A stretch of DNA of 64,000 nucleotides from positions 1 through 64,000 of the forward strand of contig JAIESC010000253.1 of NCBI GenBank assembly GCA_019746355.1, written 5' to 3'. Of this stretch, positions 20,496 to 64,000 are shown in pieces. Under the pieces are notes generated by a model. It was not told the DNA's origin and searched no databases. It was given only the letters and a program-made list of their open reading frames with translations. Both the position numbers and the translations under genes were made by a program. Origin of the DNA: Xanthobacteraceae bacterium. Lineage in GTDB: Bacteria > Pseudomonadota > Alphaproteobacteria > Rhizobiales > Xanthobacteraceae. How positions within the stretch are numbered: position 1 is the first letter of the stretch; the number at the start of each line of letters is the position of its first letter.

Positions 20496-21467
20496 CTAAT
20501 CCAGCTTCGGAATCTTCGCGTCCTCGACCACCTTGGCGAAGCGCGCGATGTCGGCCTTGAACGTCGCGGCAAACGCCTCGGGCGTATCGCCGACCGGCTC
20601 CTGACCGGTCTGGATCAGCACCTCCCGCACCTTGGGATCGGCCAGCGTCTTGGCCAGCGCCTGCTGGATCGTGTTGACGATGGCCGGCGGCGTGCCGGCC
20701 GGCACGAACATCGCGTTCCAGCTTCCGACCTCGAGACCCTTGAAGCCCTGTTCCAGCGCGGTGGGCACGTTCGGCAGCGCGCCCATTCGCTTCGTGCCGG
20801 TCACGCCGAGGCCGCGGATCAGGTTGCTCTGCACGTTGGCGATGCCGTTGGCCTGCGGCAGGAAGGCGAGTTGGATGTCGCCGCCGATCAACGCGGTGAC
20901 CATCGGCGCATCGCCGCGATAGGGGATGTGCACCATCTTCACGCCGGCGATGCTGTTGAACATCTCGGCAAAGATATGCAGCGACGAGCCGGGTCCGCTT
21001 GAGCCGAAGTTCAGCGCGCCGGGCTTGTCCTTGGCGAGCGTGGCAAGCTCGCGCAGGTCTGCGGCGGCGGTCTTCGGCGAGCCTGCGATCACGAACTGGG
21101 TCGAAATCACCATCGACACCGGTACGAAGTCTTTCACCGGGTCGAACGGCAGCTTGCCGTAGAGCGAGGACGCGCTCGACATCGCGCTGGTGTGCAGCAG
21201 GATGGTGTAGCCGTCGGGCGGCGACTTCGCGACGAGATCGGCGCCGAGATTGCCGCCCGCGCCGGGGCGGTTGTCGATGACGATCGGCTGCTTCAGGATC
21301 TCGCTCATCTTGTTGCCAACGATCTGGCCGAGGATGCTCACGCCGCCGCCGGGCGCGTAGGGCACAACCATGCGGATCGGCCGGTTCGGGTAGTCCTGCG
21401 CCCGCACGCCTGCAACGCTTGCGCAGAGCGCCAGCATCGCGCCGATCGTCAAACTCAGTCTTCGCAT
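20496..21467 (-). CDS. Bug-type substrate-binding protein, array member 1
   Basis: A 323-residue protein with leader LTIGAMLALCASVAGVRAQ and family motifs VVPYAPGGGVSILGQIV, DNRPGAGGNLGADLVA, FGSSGPGSSLHIFAEM and IPYRGDAPMVTALIGGD. It is the last gene of the minus-strand array, 18 bases after member 2. Its C-terminus KVVEDAKIPKLD closely matches the C-termini of members 3 and 4, pointing to recent duplication. Confidence 0.9.
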   Translation of the reverse strand: MRRLSLTIGAMLALCASVAGVRAQDYPNRPIRMVVPYAPGGGVSILGQIVGNKMSEILKQPIVIDNRPGAGGNLGADLVAKSPPDGYTILLHTSAMSSASSLYGKLPFDPVKDFVPVSMVISTQFVIAGSPKTAAADLRELATLAKDKPGALNFGSSGPGSSLHIFAEMFNSIAGVKMVHIPYRGDAPMVTALIGGDIQLAFLPQANGIANVQSNLIRGLGVTGTKRMGALPNVPTALEQGFKGLEVGSWNAMFVPAGTPPAIVNTIQQALAKTLADPKVREVLIQTGQEPVGDTPEAFAATFKADIARFAKVVEDAKIPKLD

Positions 21468-21485
21468 CGCCGTTTCTGTCCTTCG

Positions 21486-22466
21486 CTATTGTTTGGCGAT
21501 CTTCGCATCCGCGATGATCTTTGTGAACTTGACCACTTCCGCCTGGAAGTAGGCGCCGAAATCGGCCGGCGTGCTCGCCAGCGGCTCATAAGCCATGGCT
21601 CTGAGCCGTTCGTTGATCTCCGGCAAGGCGACCGCCTTGGCGACCTCGTTGCGGATGCGTTCGACCACGGGCGCGGGCGTCGCGGCCGGCATGAACCAGC
21701 CTTGCCATCCGGCGGAGGCGAAGCCCGGAAGGCTCGCGGCTTCGGCCACTGTCGGCACATCCGCGACCGGCTGCGAACGCTTCGGGCCGGTCACCGCCAG
21801 CGCCTTGAGGCGGCCCTCCTGAATGAGCGGCACGGCGGCGGACAGCGGGATCACCGCGACCTCGACTTCGCCTGCGATCAGCGCGGCATGGATCTGCCCG
21901 TCGCCGCGGAACGGCACCGCGACGATGTCGACGCCGGCGGCATGCTTGAGCATCTCCATCGTCAGATGCAGCGGGTTGCCGGGGCCGCTGGAGCCATAGT
22001 TGAGCTTGCCCGGATTGGCGCGGGCGCGAGTGAGCAGGTCCTTCACCGACTCGATTCCGGACTTCGGGCCCGCCACCAAGACCAGGTTCGACGCCACGAT
22101 CTGCGTCACCGGCGCGAAGTCCTTCACGCCGTCGAACGGCAGGGTGCGGTAGAGCGCGGGCGCGATCGCCGCGCCGTTGGTGTTGTGCAGGATGGTGTAG
22201 CCATCGGGCGGCGACTTCGCCGCGGCGTCCGCGCCGAGCGTGCCGCCCGCGCCGGGGCGGTTCTCGACGATGAGCGGCTGGCCGATCTGCTCGGCGACCT
22301 TGTTGCCGATGAGCCGCGCCAGGATGTCGGCCGCGCCGCCCGGTGGAAAAGGCACGATCAGCCGGATCGGACGGTTGGGGTAGCTCTGCGCTGTAGCGTC
22401 ACCGGCCCACGCCGCTGCCAGCATCAGCGCGAGCAGAGCGTACCGAAGCAGCAACGCCGGTCGCAT
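21486..22466 (-). CDS. Bug-type substrate-binding protein, array member 2
   Basis: A 326-residue protein with a leader (LALMLAAAWAGDATAQ) and the motifs IVPFPPGGAADILARLI, ENRPGAGGTLGADAA, YGSSGPGNPLHLTMEML and VPFRGDGQIHAALIAGE. It starts 4 bases after the stop of member 3 (TGA-GGCG-ATG), so the two are translationally coupled. Its central region resembles member 4 (LHLTMEML against LSLTMEML, GEVEVAVIPL against GEIQLGVMPM) more than its direct neighbours. The ligand is unknown. Confidence 0.9.
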   Translation of the reverse strand: MRPALLLRYALLALMLAAAWAGDATAQSYPNRPIRLIVPFPPGGAADILARLIGNKVAEQIGQPLIVENRPGAGGTLGADAAAKSPPDGYTILHNTNGAAIAPALYRTLPFDGVKDFAPVTQIVASNLVLVAGPKSGIESVKDLLTRARANPGKLNYGSSGPGNPLHLTMEMLKHAAGVDIVAVPFRGDGQIHAALIAGEVEVAVIPLSAAVPLIQEGRLKALAVTGPKRSQPVADVPTVAEAASLPGFASAGWQGWFMPAATPAPVVERIRNEVAKAVALPEINERLRAMAYEPLASTPADFGAYFQAEVVKFTKIIADAKIAKQ

Positions 22467-22470
22467 CGCC

Positions 22471-23436
22471 TCAATCCAGCTTGGGAATCTGCGCCGCCTC
22501 GATCACGCGGGCAAAGCGCGCAACCTCGGACTTGAAGAAGGCCTGGAACTCCGCTGTCGGGCTGCCGACCGGCTCCTGGCCGGTCGAGCGGATACGCCCG
22601 CTGACGTCGGGATCGGCGAGTGTCTTGGTCATCGCCTGCTGCAGCGTCTGCACGATCTGGGGCGACGTGCCTGCAGGAACGAACAAGCCGTACCAGCTCC
22701 CGTCGTCCATGCCGTTGAGGCCGGACTCCAACATCGTCGGGACGTCGGGGATCGACGGCCAGCGCTTACGGCCGGTGACGCCGAGCCCTCTAAGCTGCCC
22801 GGACGACACCTGATGCGGCCCGGTGCTCTGCGGCATAAAGGCGATGTGGACGTCGCCGGAGAGCAGCGCGGTCAGCATCGGTGCGTCGCCACGATAGGGA
22901 ATGTGCATGATCTGAAGCCCGCCTGCGGCATGCTTGAAGATCTCCGCCTGCAGGTGCAGCGGCGCGCCGACCCCGCTCGAACCGTAATTGAGGGTGCCAG
23001 GCTTGGCGCGGGCCAGGGCGATCACCTCCTGGACGGTCTTGGCCTCGAGCTTAGGCGAGCCGGTCAGCAGGAATTGCGTCGCCGCAACCTGCGTGACGCC
23101 GATCAGGTCCGTGAGCGGGTCGAACGACAGCTTGCGGTAGAGCGACGGGCTGATGGCAATGCCGTTGACGTTGAGCAGCATGGTGTAGCCGTCGGGCGGG
23201 GACTTGGCGACGAAGTCGGACCCGACATTGCCGCCGGCGCCCGGCTTGTGTTCGACCAGCACCGGCTGCTTGAGCACGTCCGTGAGCTTGTTGGCCAGGA
23301 TACGCGCCATGGTGTCGACGCCGCCGCCGGCCGGGAACGGCACAATGAGGCGAACCGGCCGGTCGGGATAGCCTTGCGCCAGAGCGCTCGACACCGACAG
23401 CAACGCCAACGTGATCGCAAGTAACCAGCGAAACAT
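22471..23436 (-). CDS. Bug-type substrate-binding protein, array member 3
   Basis: A 321-residue protein from the ATG at 23436, chosen because a GGAGGGG site precedes it and the signal peptide FRWLLAITLALLSVSSALAQ follows directly. Motifs are IVPFPAGGGVDTMARIL, EHKPGAGGNVGSDFVA, YGSSGVGAPLHLQAEIF and IPYRGDAPMLTALLSGD. It resembles member 1 in the C-terminal lobe. Its upstream region (23500-23612) is a copy of the region upstream of member 4, including a remnant of the aminotransferase 3' end. Confidence 0.9.
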   Translation of the reverse strand: MFRWLLAITLALLSVSSALAQGYPDRPVRLIVPFPAGGGVDTMARILANKLTDVLKQPVLVEHKPGAGGNVGSDFVAKSPPDGYTMLLNVNGIAISPSLYRKLSFDPLTDLIGVTQVAATQFLLTGSPKLEAKTVQEVIALARAKPGTLNYGSSGVGAPLHLQAEIFKHAAGGLQIMHIPYRGDAPMLTALLSGDVHIAFMPQSTGPHQVSSGQLRGLGVTGRKRWPSIPDVPTMLESGLNGMDDGSWYGLFVPAGTSPQIVQTLQQAMTKTLADPDVSGRIRSTGQEPVGSPTAEFQAFFKSEVARFARVIEAAQIPKLD

Positions 23437-23570
23437 CGAAGCCCCTCCCGTCGCGCCCGGCCATTCCCAGGCATCCGTTCTTACTGTTGCAGGTAGCAAA
23501 ACAGACGCGAATGGCCGGTACAAGCTTGCGCTTGGCCCGGCCGTTGCGACAGATCGACGGTCTGGCGGCC

Positions 23571-23612
23571 TTATTCGGCCGCGGGGCGGCTCAAGCCCGG
23601 ATGTGCGGACAC
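23571..23612 (-). pseudogene. Remnant of aminotransferase gene 3' end (duplication scar)
   Basis: Read on the minus strand, this stretch encodes VSAHPGLSRPAAE followed by a stop. The intact aminotransferase at 24750-25958 ends VSAHSGSSRAAAE. Ten of thirteen residues agree. The adjoining 23508-23542 (CAAGCTTGCGCTTGG-type sequence flanked by GGCC) also matches 24690-24722, downstream of the real gene. It is best explained as the edge of a tandem duplication that copied a Bug gene together with the tail of its upstream neighbour. Confidence 0.85.
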
Positions 23613-23646
23613 GTGTTGGGGTGAGAGCAGCGCGGGTCCGATCGCG

Positions 23647-24612
23647 TCAGTCCAGCTTGGGGATCTTCGCGTCGGCGATGATCTTGGCGAACTTGACGAT
23701 GTCGGCGCGGAATACGCGGTCGAACTCCTCGGGCGTCGAGCCCACACCCTCGTTGCCGCCGGCGCGCAGCCGCTCGATCACGTCGGGATGTTTCAGCGCC
23801 TTTGCGGTCTCCTGCTGCAGACGCACGACGATGTCGCGCGGCGTCGCGGCCGGCACGAAATAGCCTTGCCAGCTCGTCGACTCGAATCCGGGAATGGTCT
23901 CGGCCACGGTGGGCACGTCGGGCATCGCCGGCGAGCGCGCGGCACCGCCGATCGCCAGCGCCTTGAGCTGGCCGCCTTGCACCAGCGGCAGCGTGGTCGC
24001 CATCGGCATCACGCCCAATTGGATCTCGCCGGCGATCAGCGCGGCGTTGGCCGGCGCGTCGCCGCGATAGGTCACCGCCTGGATGTCCAGGCCGGCCGCG
24101 CTCTTGAGCATCTCCATCGTCAGGCTCAGCGGATTGCCGACGCCGGTCGAGCCGTAGTTGAGCGCGCCGGGCTTGGCCTTGGCGAGCTTGATCAGCTCGG
24201 CGACGTTGTTGGCTTCGAGCTTGGGATTGGCGACGAGAATGAGCTGCGACCGCACGAGCTGGGTGACGGCGGTGAAGTCCTTCTGCGAGTCGAACGGCAG
24301 AGTCTTGTAGAGCGACGGGCTGATGGCGATGCCGTTGACGGTCTGCAGCACGGTGTAGCCGTCGGGCGTGGACTTCGTGAGCACCTCGGAAGCCAGATTG
24401 CCGCCGGCGCCCGGCCGGTTCTCGATGATCACCGGCTGGCCGATGCTCTCCGACAGCTTCTGCCCGACGATGCGCGCCAGCGTGTCCACCGCGCCGCCCG
24501 CCGCGAACGGCACCAGCACGCGGATCGGCCGGTTGGGATAGGACTGCGCGAGAGCGGACCCCGTGGCCAGCGCCAGCAGCAAGGCAGCAGAGGTCAGCAG
24601 GCGAATTGTCAT
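23647..24612 (-). CDS. Bug-type substrate-binding protein, array member 4
   Basis: A 321-residue protein from the ATG at 24612 (GGGAGGACGACGCT just upstream), with leader LLTSAALLLALATGSALAQ. Motifs are LVPFAAGGAVDTLARIV, ENRPGAGGNLASEVL, YGSTGVGNPLSLTMEML and VTYRGDAPANAALIAGE. It is the first Bug gene after the aminotransferase (137 bases downstream), so the whole array may be read from the aminotransferase promoter. The ligand is unknown; a C2-C4 carboxylate would fit the glyoxylate neighbourhood, which is inference. Confidence 0.9.
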   Translation of the reverse strand: MTIRLLTSAALLLALATGSALAQSYPNRPIRVLVPFAAGGAVDTLARIVGQKLSESIGQPVIIENRPGAGGNLASEVLTKSTPDGYTVLQTVNGIAISPSLYKTLPFDSQKDFTAVTQLVRSQLILVANPKLEANNVAELIKLAKAKPGALNYGSTGVGNPLSLTMEMLKSAAGLDIQAVTYRGDAPANAALIAGEIQLGVMPMATTLPLVQGGQLKALAIGGAARSPAMPDVPTVAETIPGFESTSWQGYFVPAATPRDIVVRLQQETAKALKHPDVIERLRAGGNEGVGSTPEEFDRVFRADIVKFAKIIADAKIPKLD

Positions 24613-24749
24613 AGCGTCGTCCTCCCACGTGCCCGCATCGCGGTGCATGCAAAGTGTTGTGATTGTGTCTCAGCAAAACAAAAGAAAACGGCCGGCACAA
24701 GCTTGCACTTGGGCCGGCCGATTGACTTGCGTCGCTTCAGATCGTCCCG

Positions 24750-38682: not shown

Positions 38683-38795
38683 AGCGATCGCTCCCAAAGC
38701 GAAAGGGCGCAGCGCTTGGATGAATGGCATCTGACGGGGAGGCGGCATGATCCCCGGAATTGCGAAGGCTTCAGATATAGCCCGTAAACGTCATC

Positions 38796-59350: not shown

Positions 59351-59497
59351 TCACGCGGCCGGCGCGTCCGGCGTGCCGCTGTTGACGAACCCGGCGCTTG
59401 CAATGGCCGTTGCAGCGGCCTGCCGGGGCTGCGGCGCAAACGGCGAGGATGCGGCCATCACCGCAGCGCCGCCGACGAGAAATTCCCGCCGCCTCAT
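59351..59497 (-). CDS. Short Tat-leader peptide, unknown
   Basis: 48 residues from the ATG at 59497. It starts RRREFLVGGAAVMAASSPFA, a twin-arginine-type signal, but little mature sequence follows (SGFVNSGTPDAPAA-like tail). It may be a truncated Tat substrate or a real tiny secreted protein. It lies between the microprotein and the cupin gene on the same strand. Confidence 0.45.
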   Translation of the reverse strand: MRRREFLVGGAAVMAASSPFAPQPRQAAATAIASAGFVNSGTPDAPAA

Positions 59498-59595: not shown

Positions 59596-59700
59596 TTACG
59601 GGAGCAGGCCGATCGCCGAGTAGATGCACAGCATCGCGACGATGCTCACCCAGATGAACAGGTAGAGATTCCGGTCGAGGAACGTGTTCTTGTTGTGCAT
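59596..59700 (-). CDS. Membrane microprotein, copy 1 (34 aa)
   Basis: Read from the ATG at 59700, the protein is 34 residues: a polar head MHNKNTFLDRNLYL, then FIWVSIVAMLCIYSAIGLLP and a stop. The second part is one membrane span. Copy 2 at 63481-63579 encodes exactly the same 20-residue span with a different head. GGAG lies 7-8 bases upstream of both starts, and about 60 bases of upstream sequence are also related. Two paralogs with an unchanged core, but diverged heads, indicate a selected coding sequence. The function is unknown; a small accessory subunit or regulator of a membrane complex is one possibility. Confidence 0.75.
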   Translation of the reverse strand: MHNKNTFLDRNLYLFIWVSIVAMLCIYSAIGLLP

Positions 59701-60261
59701 GGGCTACTCCAGACAGCACGTCGCGCCGGAACGAAGCCGCCTGGGAGAGGCGGTGCGGCCAGAAGCCGTGCGCCATTGAACCGCGCGCGGAGCCGCGGCG
59801 GTATTATCTCTTGATGTCGCCGCACTACCTTTTGATATAGACCGCCGATACCAAGCTCCAGGTCAGGCCAACCGACCTTCACGCGCGCAACTCGTCTGAG
59901 GCCGGCGCGTGCGCCGACCGCACCGCGCCGACTGCACCGCGCCGATCTCATCGCGCCAATCTCATCGCGCCGACCTGTCAGGTGACCGACCGCGCATCCG
60001 CGTCGAAGGGAACGACGACATCCGCGCGCGGGTCGCGGCAAAGGCGGCGCGGCGGTGATGTGCCTGAGCGAAGGGATGCCGAGGTGATGAACGCGTTGCG
60101 CGACGGCGGCAGCGGCAACTGCGCGTTGCAGACTCTGTCGGTGCATGAGCCACGTGCCGAAATGCAACAACGTCCACAAGAGGTGGGAAAAATCTCCGAC
60201 GGCGATTGATATCGGTTTTCGATTTCAACTAGTGTCCGTTCCGGAAATGCAGGGGGAATTT
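59701..60261. other. Intergenic stretch with 14-bp tandem repeat
   Basis: 561 bases between the divergent microprotein and beta-barrel genes. At 59911-59977 a 14-base unit of type GCGCCGAyyGCAcC occurs four times plus a partial copy. The first 75 bases resemble the region upstream of microprotein copy 2 (63580-63655). No protein gene is convincing. Confidence 0.6.
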
Positions 60262-61329
60262 GTGCGTCGCATTGCATTGCTTGGACTTGCTGCCGTTGTC
60301 TCGTTCACCGCCCATCCGGTCCGCGCGCAGTCGGTGACCGCCGCGCAGGTCGCGAGCGACAGCCACCAGGGCGCTTACATCTGGGTCGATGGCGTCTACG
60401 AGCGGGTGGGGCTTCCGACCTATGGTCTCACCGGTTACCGCAGTCTCACCTCCGCGGGCTTCGACGCCGGCCCATCCCAGAGCTTCAACCCGCGCCTTGA
60501 TGCGGGCGGCGTGCGCGGCGCAATCGGCACGGCCGTTCCGCACAGCAACGTCCGGATCGAGCTTGGCGGCTCATACATGGACGGCGGCAGCACCAACTCC
60601 ACAGCGCTGGGTCCCTCGCAATCCATTGCCGGAATTCTCATGGACGGCACCATCCTGTCCGGCATGATGCTGCCCTGCATTCCCGGCTCGCTCGATTGCT
60701 CGAAGTCGGCGACGCTGCGGACCGAATACCGCGCGTGGTCGTTGAATGCGAAAGCGGCGGCGGACTTCCGGTTGGGTTCGGCCGTCGTCACACCGTCGGT
60801 CGCGGTGTTCGGCGGCATCACCCGCGCGGACCAGACGCTGTCCGAGGCCGTTGCGCAGCAAAGCTTCGCCTCGGGAACCTATGCCGCAAGCACGAGCCTG
60901 CAATGGCGCGACATCGGCGTTCGCGGCGGGCTGCAGCTCCGCTCATTCGTGACGCCGAGCTTCATCGTCGGATGGAGCGGCTCGGTCGGCGTGGCCGCGC
61001 GGAAAATCGAGTTTTCCGGCAGCGACGTCGCAACGTCGAGTAACCCCGCGTTCCTGCTCGCCGGAGCCAGCACCTTGACGCTGCAGGACAGCCGGACCGC
61101 GCTGCTCGCCAATGCCGAGGCCAACGTCACCTGGCACCTGACGCAGGCCATAACCCTCAAAGGCTTTGCCGGCCTCAACTACGACCGCGATGTGCCGGGG
61201 ATTGCCGGCGCGTTCTCGACCGGGACGACGGCCGGCCCGACGCAGCCCGCCTCGCTGTTCTTTGACAGCCGGACCAACCTCTACGCCGGCGGCGGCGTGA
61301 CCGTGAAGTTTGCCGCCGCGCGGCCGTAG
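60262..61329 (+). CDS. Outer-membrane beta-barrel protein
   Basis: About 355 residues from GTG at 60262 (AGGGGGA 4 bases upstream; an ATG at 60247 is the alternative). The signal peptide is RRIALLGLAAVVSFTAHPVRAQ. The mature part has repeated amphipathic strands (YRAWSLNAKAAADFRLGSAV; LQWRDIGVRGGLQLRS) and ends FAAARP, resembling autotransporter-like barrels without a passenger. There is a Cys pair at PCIPGSLDCSK. It is probably an outer-membrane channel or adhesin; the ligand is unknown. Confidence 0.8.
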   Translation: MRRIALLGLAAVVSFTAHPVRAQSVTAAQVASDSHQGAYIWVDGVYERVGLPTYGLTGYRSLTSAGFDAGPSQSFNPRLDAGGVRGAIGTAVPHSNVRIELGGSYMDGGSTNSTALGPSQSIAGILMDGTILSGMMLPCIPGSLDCSKSATLRTEYRAWSLNAKAAADFRLGSAVVTPSVAVFGGITRADQTLSEAVAQQSFASGTYAASTSLQWRDIGVRGGLQLRSFVTPSFIVGWSGSVGVAARKIEFSGSDVATSSNPAFLLAGASTLTLQDSRTALLANAEANVTWHLTQAITLKGFAGLNYDRDVPGIAGAFSTGTTAGPTQPASLFFDSRTNLYAGGGVTVKFAAARP

Positions 61330-61492
61330 CCGCGATCGCCTGAGCGCGACGGCCTGCCGGCGCAAGGACGCGGTCGCACCGTGCCGCTCGCCGCGCCGGC
61401 CTCTGACGTGACCAGCCGAGCAGGCCGGCACGCGCGGTGCCCGCCACAACCGCCTCATGCATGCCGCATCGTTCCGGCAGGCGTCGTGTCGG

Positions 61493-61705
61493 CTATTGAT
61501 ATCGCGTGTCACGCCGGTTGCGACGCCGGTTGCGCCGGTTCACGCCGGCAACGCTCGCCGCCGTGCCTGGCTGGCCGACGCGGGCCTCGGCGTCCGTGGC
61601 GGTCATCACCGCCGCCGGTGCCGCGAGGCCCGACACGACCGCGAGCGCTGCAAGGGCAAAAGCCTTGCGACGCGAAATCGCTTCCGTTTTGAACTTGTCA
61701 CTCAT
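61493..61705 (-). CDS. Small secreted protein with twin-arginine-like leader and basic tail
   Basis: 70 residues from the ATG at 61705 (AGGAGAGG just upstream). The leader SDKFKTEAISRRKAFALAAL is typical of small exported proteins in rhizobia, followed by ATDAEARVG (cleavage after AEA). The mature tail is short and arginine-rich (NRRNRRRNRRDTRYQ). The function is unknown. Confidence 0.75.
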   Translation of the reverse strand: MSDKFKTEAISRRKAFALAALAVVSGLAAPAAVMTATDAEARVGQPGTAASVAGVNRRNRRRNRRDTRYQ

Positions 61706-62151
61706 GACACCTCTCCTGATGTCGAAGCCCGGTCCCAAGGGGACCGCGGCGACCTGTGCATCACTGCACACGCATTTCCGTGGACGAGGGCCGTTGACCG
61801 CATGGGCATACGCGGTCGGCAAGCCGCTCGATACTATGCGTAGGTGTAGGTCAGGTTGTCTGTCACGTGTGTTGCGGCCGCTGGCTATGACCCCCGCGAA
61901 GATGATGGGTTTCGCTTTTCGCTCAACCCGCCGAACCTGCGACCGCGGCGGGACGATCGTCGGGCTCCGGCGCGGCAAGGCGCTGAACATCAGCCGAGTC
62001 CGTAGGATGGGTTCCATCACGGTAGCTGTCCGAGCGATGGCATCTTCTTTCGCCTATGGTCACCGCGAAGATACGGGCGCTGCCGTGCGAGGCAGCGCCC
62101 GCTGTTCAAACGCATGCGGTCGTCTGGTTCGACCCTGACCCAAACAAGCGG
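61706..62151. other. Intergenic stretch with cupin-gene scrap
   Basis: 446 bases. 61936-61965 differs at only about two positions from the 3' end of the cupin gene (58815-58843); GGCGGGACGATCGTCGGGC is shared exactly. GATGGGTTTCGCT at 61904 also matches 58728. On the minus strand the scrap reads SPTIVPPRS, as in the cupin C-terminus, but the stop codon is lost. No gene was seen. Confidence 0.6.
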
Positions 62152-63087
62152 TCAGTAATCCCAGACGGCCGGTATCCAACGAAAGACGTCGCCGTCGACC
62201 GCCACATGTCCGACGGACGGGAACGGCAGGTGAGTGGCGACCAGCAGCTCGCCGCTCGCCGCCAGCTCCTGCAACAGACGGACGCGAACGCGGGCCGCCT
62301 CCGCGGGGTCGTGCTCGAAGCCGTTGTGCCAGTCGGGGTTCTCGAACCCGACCGTGAACACGGCGTCGCCGGCGAAGGTCAGCCGGTCGCCGCCGGACGA
62401 AAGGCGGACCACGCTGTGGCCGGGGGTGTGGCCGCCGGTGCGAACGACGACCACCCCTGGCGCCACCTCGTGCTTCTCCTCGAACAGCCGGAGCTGGCTG
62501 CGGTACTCGCTCAAGAACCGCTGGGCGGTCGCCCGAAGCGCGTCCGGGAATCCATCCGGCATGGAGGTGCGGGAGAAATCGGGCGACGCCCAGAACGCGG
62601 CCTCGGCGGCCGCCACGTGGATCCGCAGGTCCGGACGCAGCCGCTCCTTCACGCCGTCGACCAGGAGCCCGCCGATGTGGTCCATGTGCATGTGGGTCAG
62701 CACCACGTCGGTCACGGATGAAAGATCGATGCCGGCGGCCTCCAGTCGCCGGACCAACTGCCCGGCCCGCGGCAGGTTCGGGTTCACCCCGAGGCCGGCG
62801 TCGACGAGGATGGTCCGGCCGCCGCTGTACACCACGACCACGTTCAGCGGCCAATCGAGCATTTCCGGCGGCAGCAGCATGTCCTCCAGCCAGGCCGCCC
62901 GGACGGCCGGGTCGGTGTCGTGTGCCAGCATCCTGGTTGGCAGCGACAGCACCCCATCGCTGATCACCAGCACGTCGATCTCGCCGATCCGCAGCGCGTA
63001 GCGCGACGGAACCAGCTCGTCGTGCCGGCCGGGGTGCGGGATGGTGTCCAAGCTCACGTTCACGTTCATGTTCATGTTCATGCTCAT
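62152..63087 (-). CDS. Metallo-beta-lactamase-fold hydrolase
   Basis: A 311-residue MBL-fold protein from the ATG at 63087 (AGGAGG upstream). The zinc motif is LTHMHMDHIGG (His132, His134, Asp136, His137). Further ligands are probably the His in GGHTPGHSV and Asp in TFAGDAVF, and LVATHLPFPSVGH near the end. The N-terminus is an odd MSMNMNMNVNVS run. It resembles lactonase/quorum-quenching-type or arylsulfatase-like MBL enzymes; the substrate is unknown. It follows microprotein copy 2 by about 390 bases. Confidence 0.88.
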   Translation of the reverse strand: MSMNMNMNVNVSLDTIPHPGRHDELVPSRYALRIGEIDVLVISDGVLSLPTRMLAHDTDPAVRAAWLEDMLLPPEMLDWPLNVVVVYSGGRTILVDAGLGVNPNLPRAGQLVRRLEAAGIDLSSVTDVVLTHMHMDHIGGLLVDGVKERLRPDLRIHVAAAEAAFWASPDFSRTSMPDGFPDALRATAQRFLSEYRSQLRLFEEKHEVAPGVVVVRTGGHTPGHSVVRLSSGGDRLTFAGDAVFTVGFENPDWHNGFEHDPAEAARVRVRLLQELAASGELLVATHLPFPSVGHVAVDGDVFRWIPAVWDY

Positions 63088-63213
63088 GTTGGCCTCCTGC
63101 TGACCGTCCGTTTTGCGATGTGTTTCGCTACTCCCGTGTGCGATGGAGACGTAACCATCCGGTGGTCCAGGTCGCGTACATCCCGGGTATAGGATCGATG
63201 CGTCCGAAGCGCA

Positions 63214-63288
63214 TGCCAAGTGAAGCACTGCCAAGTGAAGCACTGCCAAGTGAAGCACTGCCAGGTGAAGCACTGCCAGGTGAAGCAC
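63214..63288. repeat. 15-bp tandem repeat, five copies
   Basis: TGCCAAGTGAAGCAC occurs three times in a row and TGCCAGGTGAAGCAC twice more, with no spacing. It lies 127 bases upstream of the MBL gene start. In the minus frame shared with that gene it would read (AVLHL)n, but the ribosome site at 63087 argues it is not translated. It is a likely site of copy-number variation. Confidence 0.9.
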
Positions 63289-63435
63289 TGCGAAGCCCTG
63301 CGGAGTTCGCGCCGGCGGTGCTGAGCCAGCAGTCACTCTGCCGGCACGCGTTCCGGTCAACGACATGGCCCGACGACAGGCTCCGCGGCGTGCCCCGCGG
63401 TATGCCCGCGGGCCGCATGTCGCGTCTTGCGAAAC

Positions 63436-63474
63436 GATCGCGTGGGCACGGCGCTTTCGCGCCTTTGCCCACCC
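63436..63474. repeat. GTGGGCA...GCCCACC dispersed palindrome
   Basis: CGTGGGCACGGCGCTTTCGC and GCCTTTGCCCACC, a member of the 48453-48578 and 54058-54372 families. It lies directly downstream of microprotein copy 2 and may terminate its transcript. Confidence 0.65.
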
Positions 63475-63480
63475 CGCGCG

Positions 63481-63579
63481 CTACGGCAACAGCCCGATCG
63501 CGGAGTAGATGCAGAGCATCGCGACGATGCTCACCCAAATGAACGGGTAGATGTCGAGGGACGTTTCTTTGTCGTTCAT
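63481..63579 (-). CDS. Membrane microprotein, copy 2 (32 aa)
   Basis: From the ATG at 63579 the protein is 32 residues: head MNDKETSLDIYP then FIWVSIVAMLCIYSAIGLLP and a TAG stop. The span is identical to copy 1 at 59596-59700, whereas codons differ (the genes are not simple DNA copies; for example CTG/CTC, GCG/GCC choices vary). GGAG precedes the start. It is followed by a palindrome and the MBL gene region, preceded by a low-complexity secreted protein gene on the same strand. Confidence 0.75.
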   Translation of the reverse strand: MNDKETSLDIYPFIWVSIVAMLCIYSAIGLLP

Positions 63580-63722
63580 GGGCACTCCGGACACCGTGTC
63601 GCGGCGGAAGGAAGACATGTGGGAGCGCCCGCGCGGCGCAACGGCCGCGCGCCTTTCGTGGTCTGCCCGTTGACGAAACCGGCTCGCGCTCGTTCAGCGG
63701 CGTCCGGTTTCAGCGGCCGGGG

Positions 63723-64000
63723 TTACTGGCACGACCGGTCGACCCGCGGGTCGCAGACCGGACCGAAGTAGCTCCCGGACAGGATGCCGCGCTTGTAGTA
63801 GGCGCGGGTGGGGTAGGCGTTGGTGTTGTAGTAGATGGCATCGCTGCCGTAGCCGGCGTTGGTATAGCCGGCGTTGGTGTCAGCCGCGTTGATGGCGCGG
63901 GCGTTGGCGGCGCGGGCGGCGCGAATGTTGGCGGCGCGGGCGGCGGCAACATTGCTGGTGGCGGCATCGGCGCTGCTATTCCAGGCTCCGAACCAGCCGC
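63723..64000 (-). CDS. Low-complexity Ala/Asn-rich protein, C-terminal part (cut by window edge)
   Basis: The minus strand is open for 91 codons from the window end to a TAA at 63723. It begins GWFGAWNSSADAATSNVAAA, continues with RAANIRAARAANARAINAAD, then TNAGYTNAGYGSDAIYYNTN and ends FGPVCDPRVDRSCQ. Alternating Ala-rich helix-like and Tyr/Asn-rich repeats and a terminal Cys pair suggest a secreted or surface protein. The N-terminus lies outside the window. The frame is preferred to a proline-rich alternative because it is continuous and has a balanced composition. The function is unknown. Confidence 0.6.
   Translation of the reverse strand, partial: GWFGAWNSSADAATSNVAAARAANIRAARAANARAINAADTNAGYTNAGYGSDAIYYNTNAYPTRAYYKRGILSGSYFGPVCDPRVDRSCQ

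Follow-up and report, generated by a model that had tools for sequence, protein, structure and literature searches.

Small single-span membrane proteins are a kind of protein rather than a homology family. CcoM, which belongs to an oxidase, and CydX are small accessory subunits of membrane complexes. The portions of the published reports that are drawn on here give CcoM as a 36-amino acid subunit (PMC10433244) and describe effects of the 27-amino acid YohP protein of E. coli on membrane composition, fluidity and potential (PMC12719787). In the sections used from a study of Sinorhizobium meliloti, the membrane SEPs SEP6 and SEP16 combine a predicted membrane helix with ribosome-profiling and Western support, and some of the short ORFs of that study are very narrowly conserved (PMC10117765).

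Two microprotein genes with an identical C-terminal span

An earlier note on the window (the whole stretch of DNA that was analyzed, 64,000 nucleotides) had claimed two minus-strand ORFs of 34 and 32 amino acids with an identical 20-residue span, each preceded by GGAG. Both observations were confirmed, with the following features.

59596..59700, minus strand: microprotein copy 1, 34 amino acids, reading MHNKNTFLDRNLYLFIWVSIVAMLCIYSAIGLLP up to its stop; the hydrophobic span is residues 15–34
63481..63579, minus strand: microprotein copy 2, 32 amino acids, reading MNDKETSLDIYPFIWVSIVAMLCIYSAIGLLP up to its stop; 20-residue span as in copy 1
59707..59710, minus strand: ribosome-binding-like GGAG, 6 nt upstream of the copy 1 ATG
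63585..63588, minus strand: ribosome-binding-like GGAG, 5 nt upstream of the copy 2 ATG

The shared C-terminal span, FIWVSIVAMLCIYSAIGLLP, is the longest run among the 51 repeated 12-residue strings in a six-frame translation of the window. The polar heads, described previously as different, do diverge, but not wholly, since they share aligned M, K, T, L, D and Y residues. A relation of the 5′ flanks, claimed over about 60 bases, was found over a slightly longer stretch (57 matches in 78 aligned columns, a score reached by none of 1000 shuffles); the 3′ flanks of the same pair displayed no convincing homology. An in-frame TAG between GGAG and ATG fixes the start of copy 1 and excludes a longer N-terminus, and copy 2 has a further in-frame ATG 13 codons upstream.

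A search for the conserved peptide elsewhere, as the earlier note had proposed, yielded a third copy, MKDKETSIDIYLFIWVSIAAMLCFYSAIGLMP, at locus L001 on contig JAIESI010000025.1 of a Xanthobacteraceae MAG (G001). Its span is intact and identical to that of the window copies at 17 of 20 residues, and an inner ATG preceded by GGAG is common to all three genes.

In the microprotein a short polar head is followed by a hydrophobic span that runs to the C-terminus, with Kyte-Doolittle maxima of 2.34, 2.34 and 2.12 in the three copies, and a single-sequence prediction for copy 1 places a helix at residues 3–30 (mean pLDDT 88). The initial description of membrane microproteins is thus in keeping with one hydrophobic span and a predicted helix; at under about 50 amino acids and with one hydrophobic helix (predicted for copy 1), they belong with the small single-span membrane proteins. 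Neither window copy matched any family among the Pfam and NCBIfam profiles at E up to 10, and the PHROGs and PADLOC profiles, at E up to 1, gave only a PHROG of unknown function for copy 1 (E 0.16). A profile of the three microprotein sequences matched no solved structure when compared by sequence, and the peptide and motif strings were absent from the literature searched.

Among the described systems, CcoM and CydX are alike in size and in their presumed single helix, but the microprotein has no recognized oxidase gene among its scanned neighbors and no profile match. In the portion of its report used here, YohP is similar as a very short membrane protein with no catalytic part, and offers a model for peptide action; its effects have been measured, whereas the microproteins are known from sequence alone and are likened to it by description (PMC12719787). 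The same holds for the Sinorhizobium meliloti SEPs as presented in the sections used: they too are unannotated alphaproteobacterial proteins with a predicted membrane helix, but the translation support is theirs, and the resemblance of our sequence-derived proteins to them is one of description (PMC10117765).

Protein-level selection on the hydrophobic span

Codon differences beneath an unchanged peptide had been taken to point to selection on the protein, and for the span this was supported. Its DNA differs between copies 1 and 2 at 6 of 60 nucleotides, located in five codons, and all six differences are silent, an outcome with P of 1.25e-4 in 200,000 trials of random substitutions on the span of copy 1 (kappa 2, GC target 0.66). 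The corresponding NG86 dN/dS is 0.022/0.469, a ratio of about 0.05 in which the dN is a product of NG86 paths through one two-step codon change, and comparisons of the window copies with the MAG copy give 0.080/0.427 and 0.067/0.377 (0.18–0.19). Protein-level selection on the 20-residue span is clear. The dN/dS test proposed in the earlier note therefore came out low on the span but only moderately low over the whole ORF, where the three pairs, after exclusion of two codons in the head of copy 1, give 0.115/0.360, 0.170/0.332 and 0.084/0.230 (0.32, 0.51 and 0.36); selection is weaker on the head.

All three copies have a coding-like GC content by codon position, with GC1/GC2/GC3 of 0.44/0.29/0.97, 0.41/0.34/0.91 and 0.38/0.34/0.88. 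A chance match of copies 1 and 2 is ruled out by this composition and by the pattern of silent substitutions. Recent gene conversion is not needed as a cause of the identical span, and would erase silent differences.

An upstream block shared with genes for secreted-looking proteins

Upstream of the microprotein genes we examined the following features.

59774..59861, minus strand: conserved, promoter-like upstream block of copy 1, containing TATATCAAAAGGT and TCAAGAGATAATACCGCCGCGGCTCC
63723..64000, minus strand: gene for a secreted-looking Tyr/Gly-rich protein, directly upstream of copy 2 and cut by the window end
61493..61705, minus strand: Tat-leader-like protein of 70 amino acids with an SVAGVNRR motif

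The block of copy 1 is 88% identical over 88 bp (BLAST) to a block before the MAG microprotein, and 84–88% identical over 80–83 bp to two blocks on G001 contig C258, which precede tandem secreted-looking Tyr/Gly-rich proteins of 241 and 150 amino acids with a SIAGVNRRVARR motif. When up to 3 mismatches were allowed, the block pattern was found at three places in G001, one preceding the microprotein and two preceding secreted-looking proteins, and at none in the other 295 family genomes, while a reversed control pattern gave no match in all 296. That the block is common to copy 1 and the MAG copy, and also precedes secreted-looking genes, is newly recognized here. It ends 73 nt before the start of copy 1 and 169 nt before that of the MAG microprotein; for the two C258 proteins the distances to the start codon are 34 and 37 nt.

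Alignment of the four blocks reveals two cores, TATATCWAAAGGT (in which W is variable) and the invariant TCAAGAGATAATACCGCCGCGGCTCC. GATAAT within the second core resembles a −10 box and is accompanied by no TTGACA at the usual distance; for that reason we infer that the block may be an activator-dependent promoter. TTGATATC, considered as a wider operator, occurs at 3 window sites where 0.57 would be expected (1 of 100 shuffles reached that count), but it was set aside, as one site falls within the end of a coding frame. Wide homology of the upstream DNA was rejected: at a cut-off of E 0.01, matches came from 44 of 296 genomes, but in 43 of these they had E of 1.9e-4 or worse and spanned 20–65 nt, with all listed rows but one at query positions 79–172 (the GC-rich end and beyond the block), and the stricter block pattern leaves G001 only.

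The N-terminal region of the C258 proteins (MRKLSILG...GKLSVSLD...IGRPWTATSIAGVNRRVARR) suggests, as we read it, that they are secreted. The protein encoded at 63723..64000 resembles the larger of them over its C-terminal 91 residues (51 of 94 positions, E 5e-28), and its gene lies 143 nt from copy 2 on the same strand. Here the link is one of adjacency alone, because any block would lie outside the window. Given the block before copy 1 and the MAG copy, and this relative adjoining copy 2, all three microprotein genes are linked genetically to the secreted-looking unit, by block or by adjacency.

The 70-amino acid protein at 61493..61705, which has a MAG relative on contig C167, is tied by its motif to a SIAGVNRR-type superfamily whose N-terminal profile finds matches in 3 of the 11 genus genomes. 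Nine loci were returned by that profile; with as many as 4 changes tolerated in a 17-base core, the block was present in just two of them, L056 and L059, which both derive from C258. Eight database relatives were listed, among them both proteins of L038 and one with a BA14K domain (P0010); upstream of another, P0008, a frame reads much like the same leader, judging from the translation only. P0010, one of the eight listed, has the BA14K-like domain (PF07886) together with a similar N-terminal region with SVAGVHRR, whereas the 241-amino acid MAG protein has no Pfam match. The L038 proteins are a tandem pair of secreted-looking Tyr/Gly-rich proteins (L038:3952-5739, minus strand).

More of the 5′ UTR of the secreted gene is retained in the MAG leader, and this part contains a GGAG as well as an ATG that shares the reading frame of the microprotein; the part is missing from copy 1. 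The arrangement looks as if the microprotein gene had been fused to the start of a secreted-looking gene. The frame upstream of the MAG copy is open (111 amino acids from stop to stop), so that a longer form of 77 amino acids would be possible; the longer frame had no match among 54 candidates from the protein database. This frame is kept open by repeats like CAGGCTCCCATG at L001:738-873, which separate the leader from the MAG microprotein. In the window, the DNA at 59952–60144, upstream of the copy 1 block, is 77% identical to L053:1440-1641, elsewhere on the MAG microprotein contig, and in part 81% identical to L001:6328-6412.

Proposed role and neighboring genes

The reading we favor, with somewhat less than an even chance for its parts taken jointly, is that the microproteins constitute a genuine, lineage-restricted family of 32–34 amino acids, new within a known kind, and that they are inner-membrane proteins that are co-regulated with a SIAGVNRR-type envelope protein and act on a partner in the membrane through helix packing. 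The N-terminus would lie in the cytoplasm and the helix in the inner membrane, and the block, as a promoter, would have the microprotein produced along with the SIAGVNRR-type envelope proteins. That the helix is nearly invariant while the head is looser suggests contacts inside the membrane; the helix might pack against a larger membrane protein (a sensor, a transporter or export machinery) and thereby tune that partner when the envelope protein is made. We consider it unlikely that the locus is an as yet undescribed envelope module of one Xanthobacteraceae genus, in which a strongly conserved activator-type promoter block would drive secreted Arg- and Tyr/Gly-rich SIAGVNRR proteins along with a microprotein that specifically serves them, for example as a membrane docking or export partner, and that was duplicated with the unit.

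The neighboring genes bear on a further possibility, that the microprotein is a small, condition-specific accessory subunit of a membrane complex whose link to the secreted-looking gene is a shared promoter only. The DNA between copy 1 and the frame below is homologous to the DNA after the MAG microprotein.

59351..59497, minus strand: Tat-leader-like frame after copy 1, 48 amino acids (TAT_signal E 0.015, below its cut-off)

The MAG microprotein is followed by an ABC_sub_bind gene that has its Tat-like leader in another frame and that we read as frame-broken; the 48-amino acid frame is possibly a remnant of such a gene. This substrate-binding gene would suit a subunit, as would the length, single predicted helix and near-invariant span of the peptide, but no oxidase or membrane-transporter gene was recognized by Pfam among the 9 window and 8 further proteins scanned, the peptide has no profile match, and the microprotein was not found in 10 of the 11 genus genomes. 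On balance an accessory subunit has only a modest chance of being correct.

Two of the neighbors named as context in the earlier note, the cupin and the MBL enzyme, proved less informative. The window MBL gene (ORF 62152-63366) has a counterpart with 84% identity on G001 contig C184, and this counterpart adjoins a cupin gene and an SDR-like gene (a label from reading) with no microprotein, so that MBL and cupin are not fixed partners. The block and the adjoining SIAGVNRR-type protein are the more telling context.

Should this link be functional, the family could serve as a compact model for studying how one-helix proteins work alongside the envelope proteins with which they are made. The locus in any case adds a selected microprotein family with no curated profile, for which the shared upstream block and the secreted-looking partner family provide a handle.

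Distribution of the microprotein

The MAG copy was the one confirmed relative among 26 pattern matches in a genome_contigs scan of 84,980 species with two peptide patterns, and a whole-genome search of G001 located it as a single copy on contig C291. Profile searches gave G001 as the sole convincing match among 296 family, 11 genus, 397 order and 367 class genomes; G001 belongs to each of the four sets, and those for family, order and class sample larger groups. Divergent copies lacking both patterns could exist outside the sampled genomes. The family is real but very narrow, with three intact copies in two genomes. The suggestion of an undescribed family thus stands as to Pfam and NCBIfam, but the family lacks breadth (one further genome in what was searched), and its rarity limits the generality of any lesson. 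The ORFs had also been held too short for most gene finders; the protein database search retrieved only copy 2 itself, on a single contig of 89,447 bases that we take to be the window's own, and this copy would thus seem to have been predicted already by a gene finder.

Candidates for a broader family were rejected. Besides G001, 4 of the 296 family genomes matched at E 0.026–0.092 and 4 of the 367 class genomes at E 0.001–0.008, inside long frames or, once, across a stop, and in numbers not above chance expectation. A plasmid or phage gene was likewise rejected: tblastn with copy 1 as query found nothing on plasmids and, for phages, only three Arthrobacter records at E 9, while 49 pattern-matching stretches in viral contigs included none encoding a relative, and an exact copy of the core block was likewise absent.

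An E1-beta-like protein of the window (labeled from reading) is 99% identical to its counterparts in G001 and G081; identity falls to 93–97% for the nine remaining genus genomes and does not exceed 92% for the other family genomes listed with a nearly full-length match. G001 is therefore probably of the window's own genus. Window segments at 48.6–52.9 kb and 54.4–58.7 kb match G001 contig C150 piecewise (82–94% identical, partly in different order), and C150 ends near the place of copy 1. Since the microprotein was found in 1 of the 11 genus genomes (their completeness is unstated), it is probably dispensable.

Such a distribution, with three copies known and little found elsewhere, would agree with a recently born or drifting gene, in which leader and hydrophobic ORF were duplicated together with weak or no function, as would heads that diverge by replacements and a whole-ORF dN/dS of 0.32–0.51. 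We nevertheless regard this as rather unlikely, as the span differences of the window pair are all silent and the span dN/dS is about 0.05 for that pair and 0.18–0.19 against the MAG copy.

RNA-based readings of the upstream region

Within the copy 1 block, the opposite strand carries an inverted repeat resembling a terminator (59795–59823; 1 found versus 0.5 expected), and part of the block conservation might, given this site, have another cause. The site would suit an antisense transcript restraining a membrane-active, type I toxin-like peptide, as would a very short hydrophobic peptide with two paralogues in one region and a sporadic distribution. A scan covering sigma-70 only found no consensus site near copy 1 or 2 and no antisense promoter-like site, however, and there was no Rfam match there at the gathering threshold. 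A structured leader RNA was rejected: of 25 predicted pairs, 2 are changed on both sides and 10 fail to pair in one or more of the four sequences, with a covariation term of +0.94. With the dense upstream conservation also common to other genes, a toxin is rather unlikely.

A regulatory leader (uORF or attenuator) for a downstream Tat-leader/ABC_sub_bind gene, with the peptide as a by-product, would fit the Tat-leader-like frames that follow copy 1 and the MAG copy across homologous DNA, but is highly improbable, since no such frame was seen after copy 2 and selection is visible on amino acids, not on RNA pairs.

Other features of the window

Between the two microproteins, an outer-membrane-protein-like ORF (labeled from reading; no Pfam match) occupies 60145–61329 on the plus strand, and a 15-bp tandem repeat with five copies in register lies at 63199–63295, between the MBL gene and copy 2. 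The sole gathering-level Rfam match in the window is a chrB-b cis-regulatory RNA at 38709–38756 (minus strand, 51.5 bits). At 20496–24648 (minus strand) are four tandem ORFs of 323–350 amino acids, presumably substrate-binding proteins from their sequences, which exhibit mutual DNA similarity at a spacing of about 1 kb.
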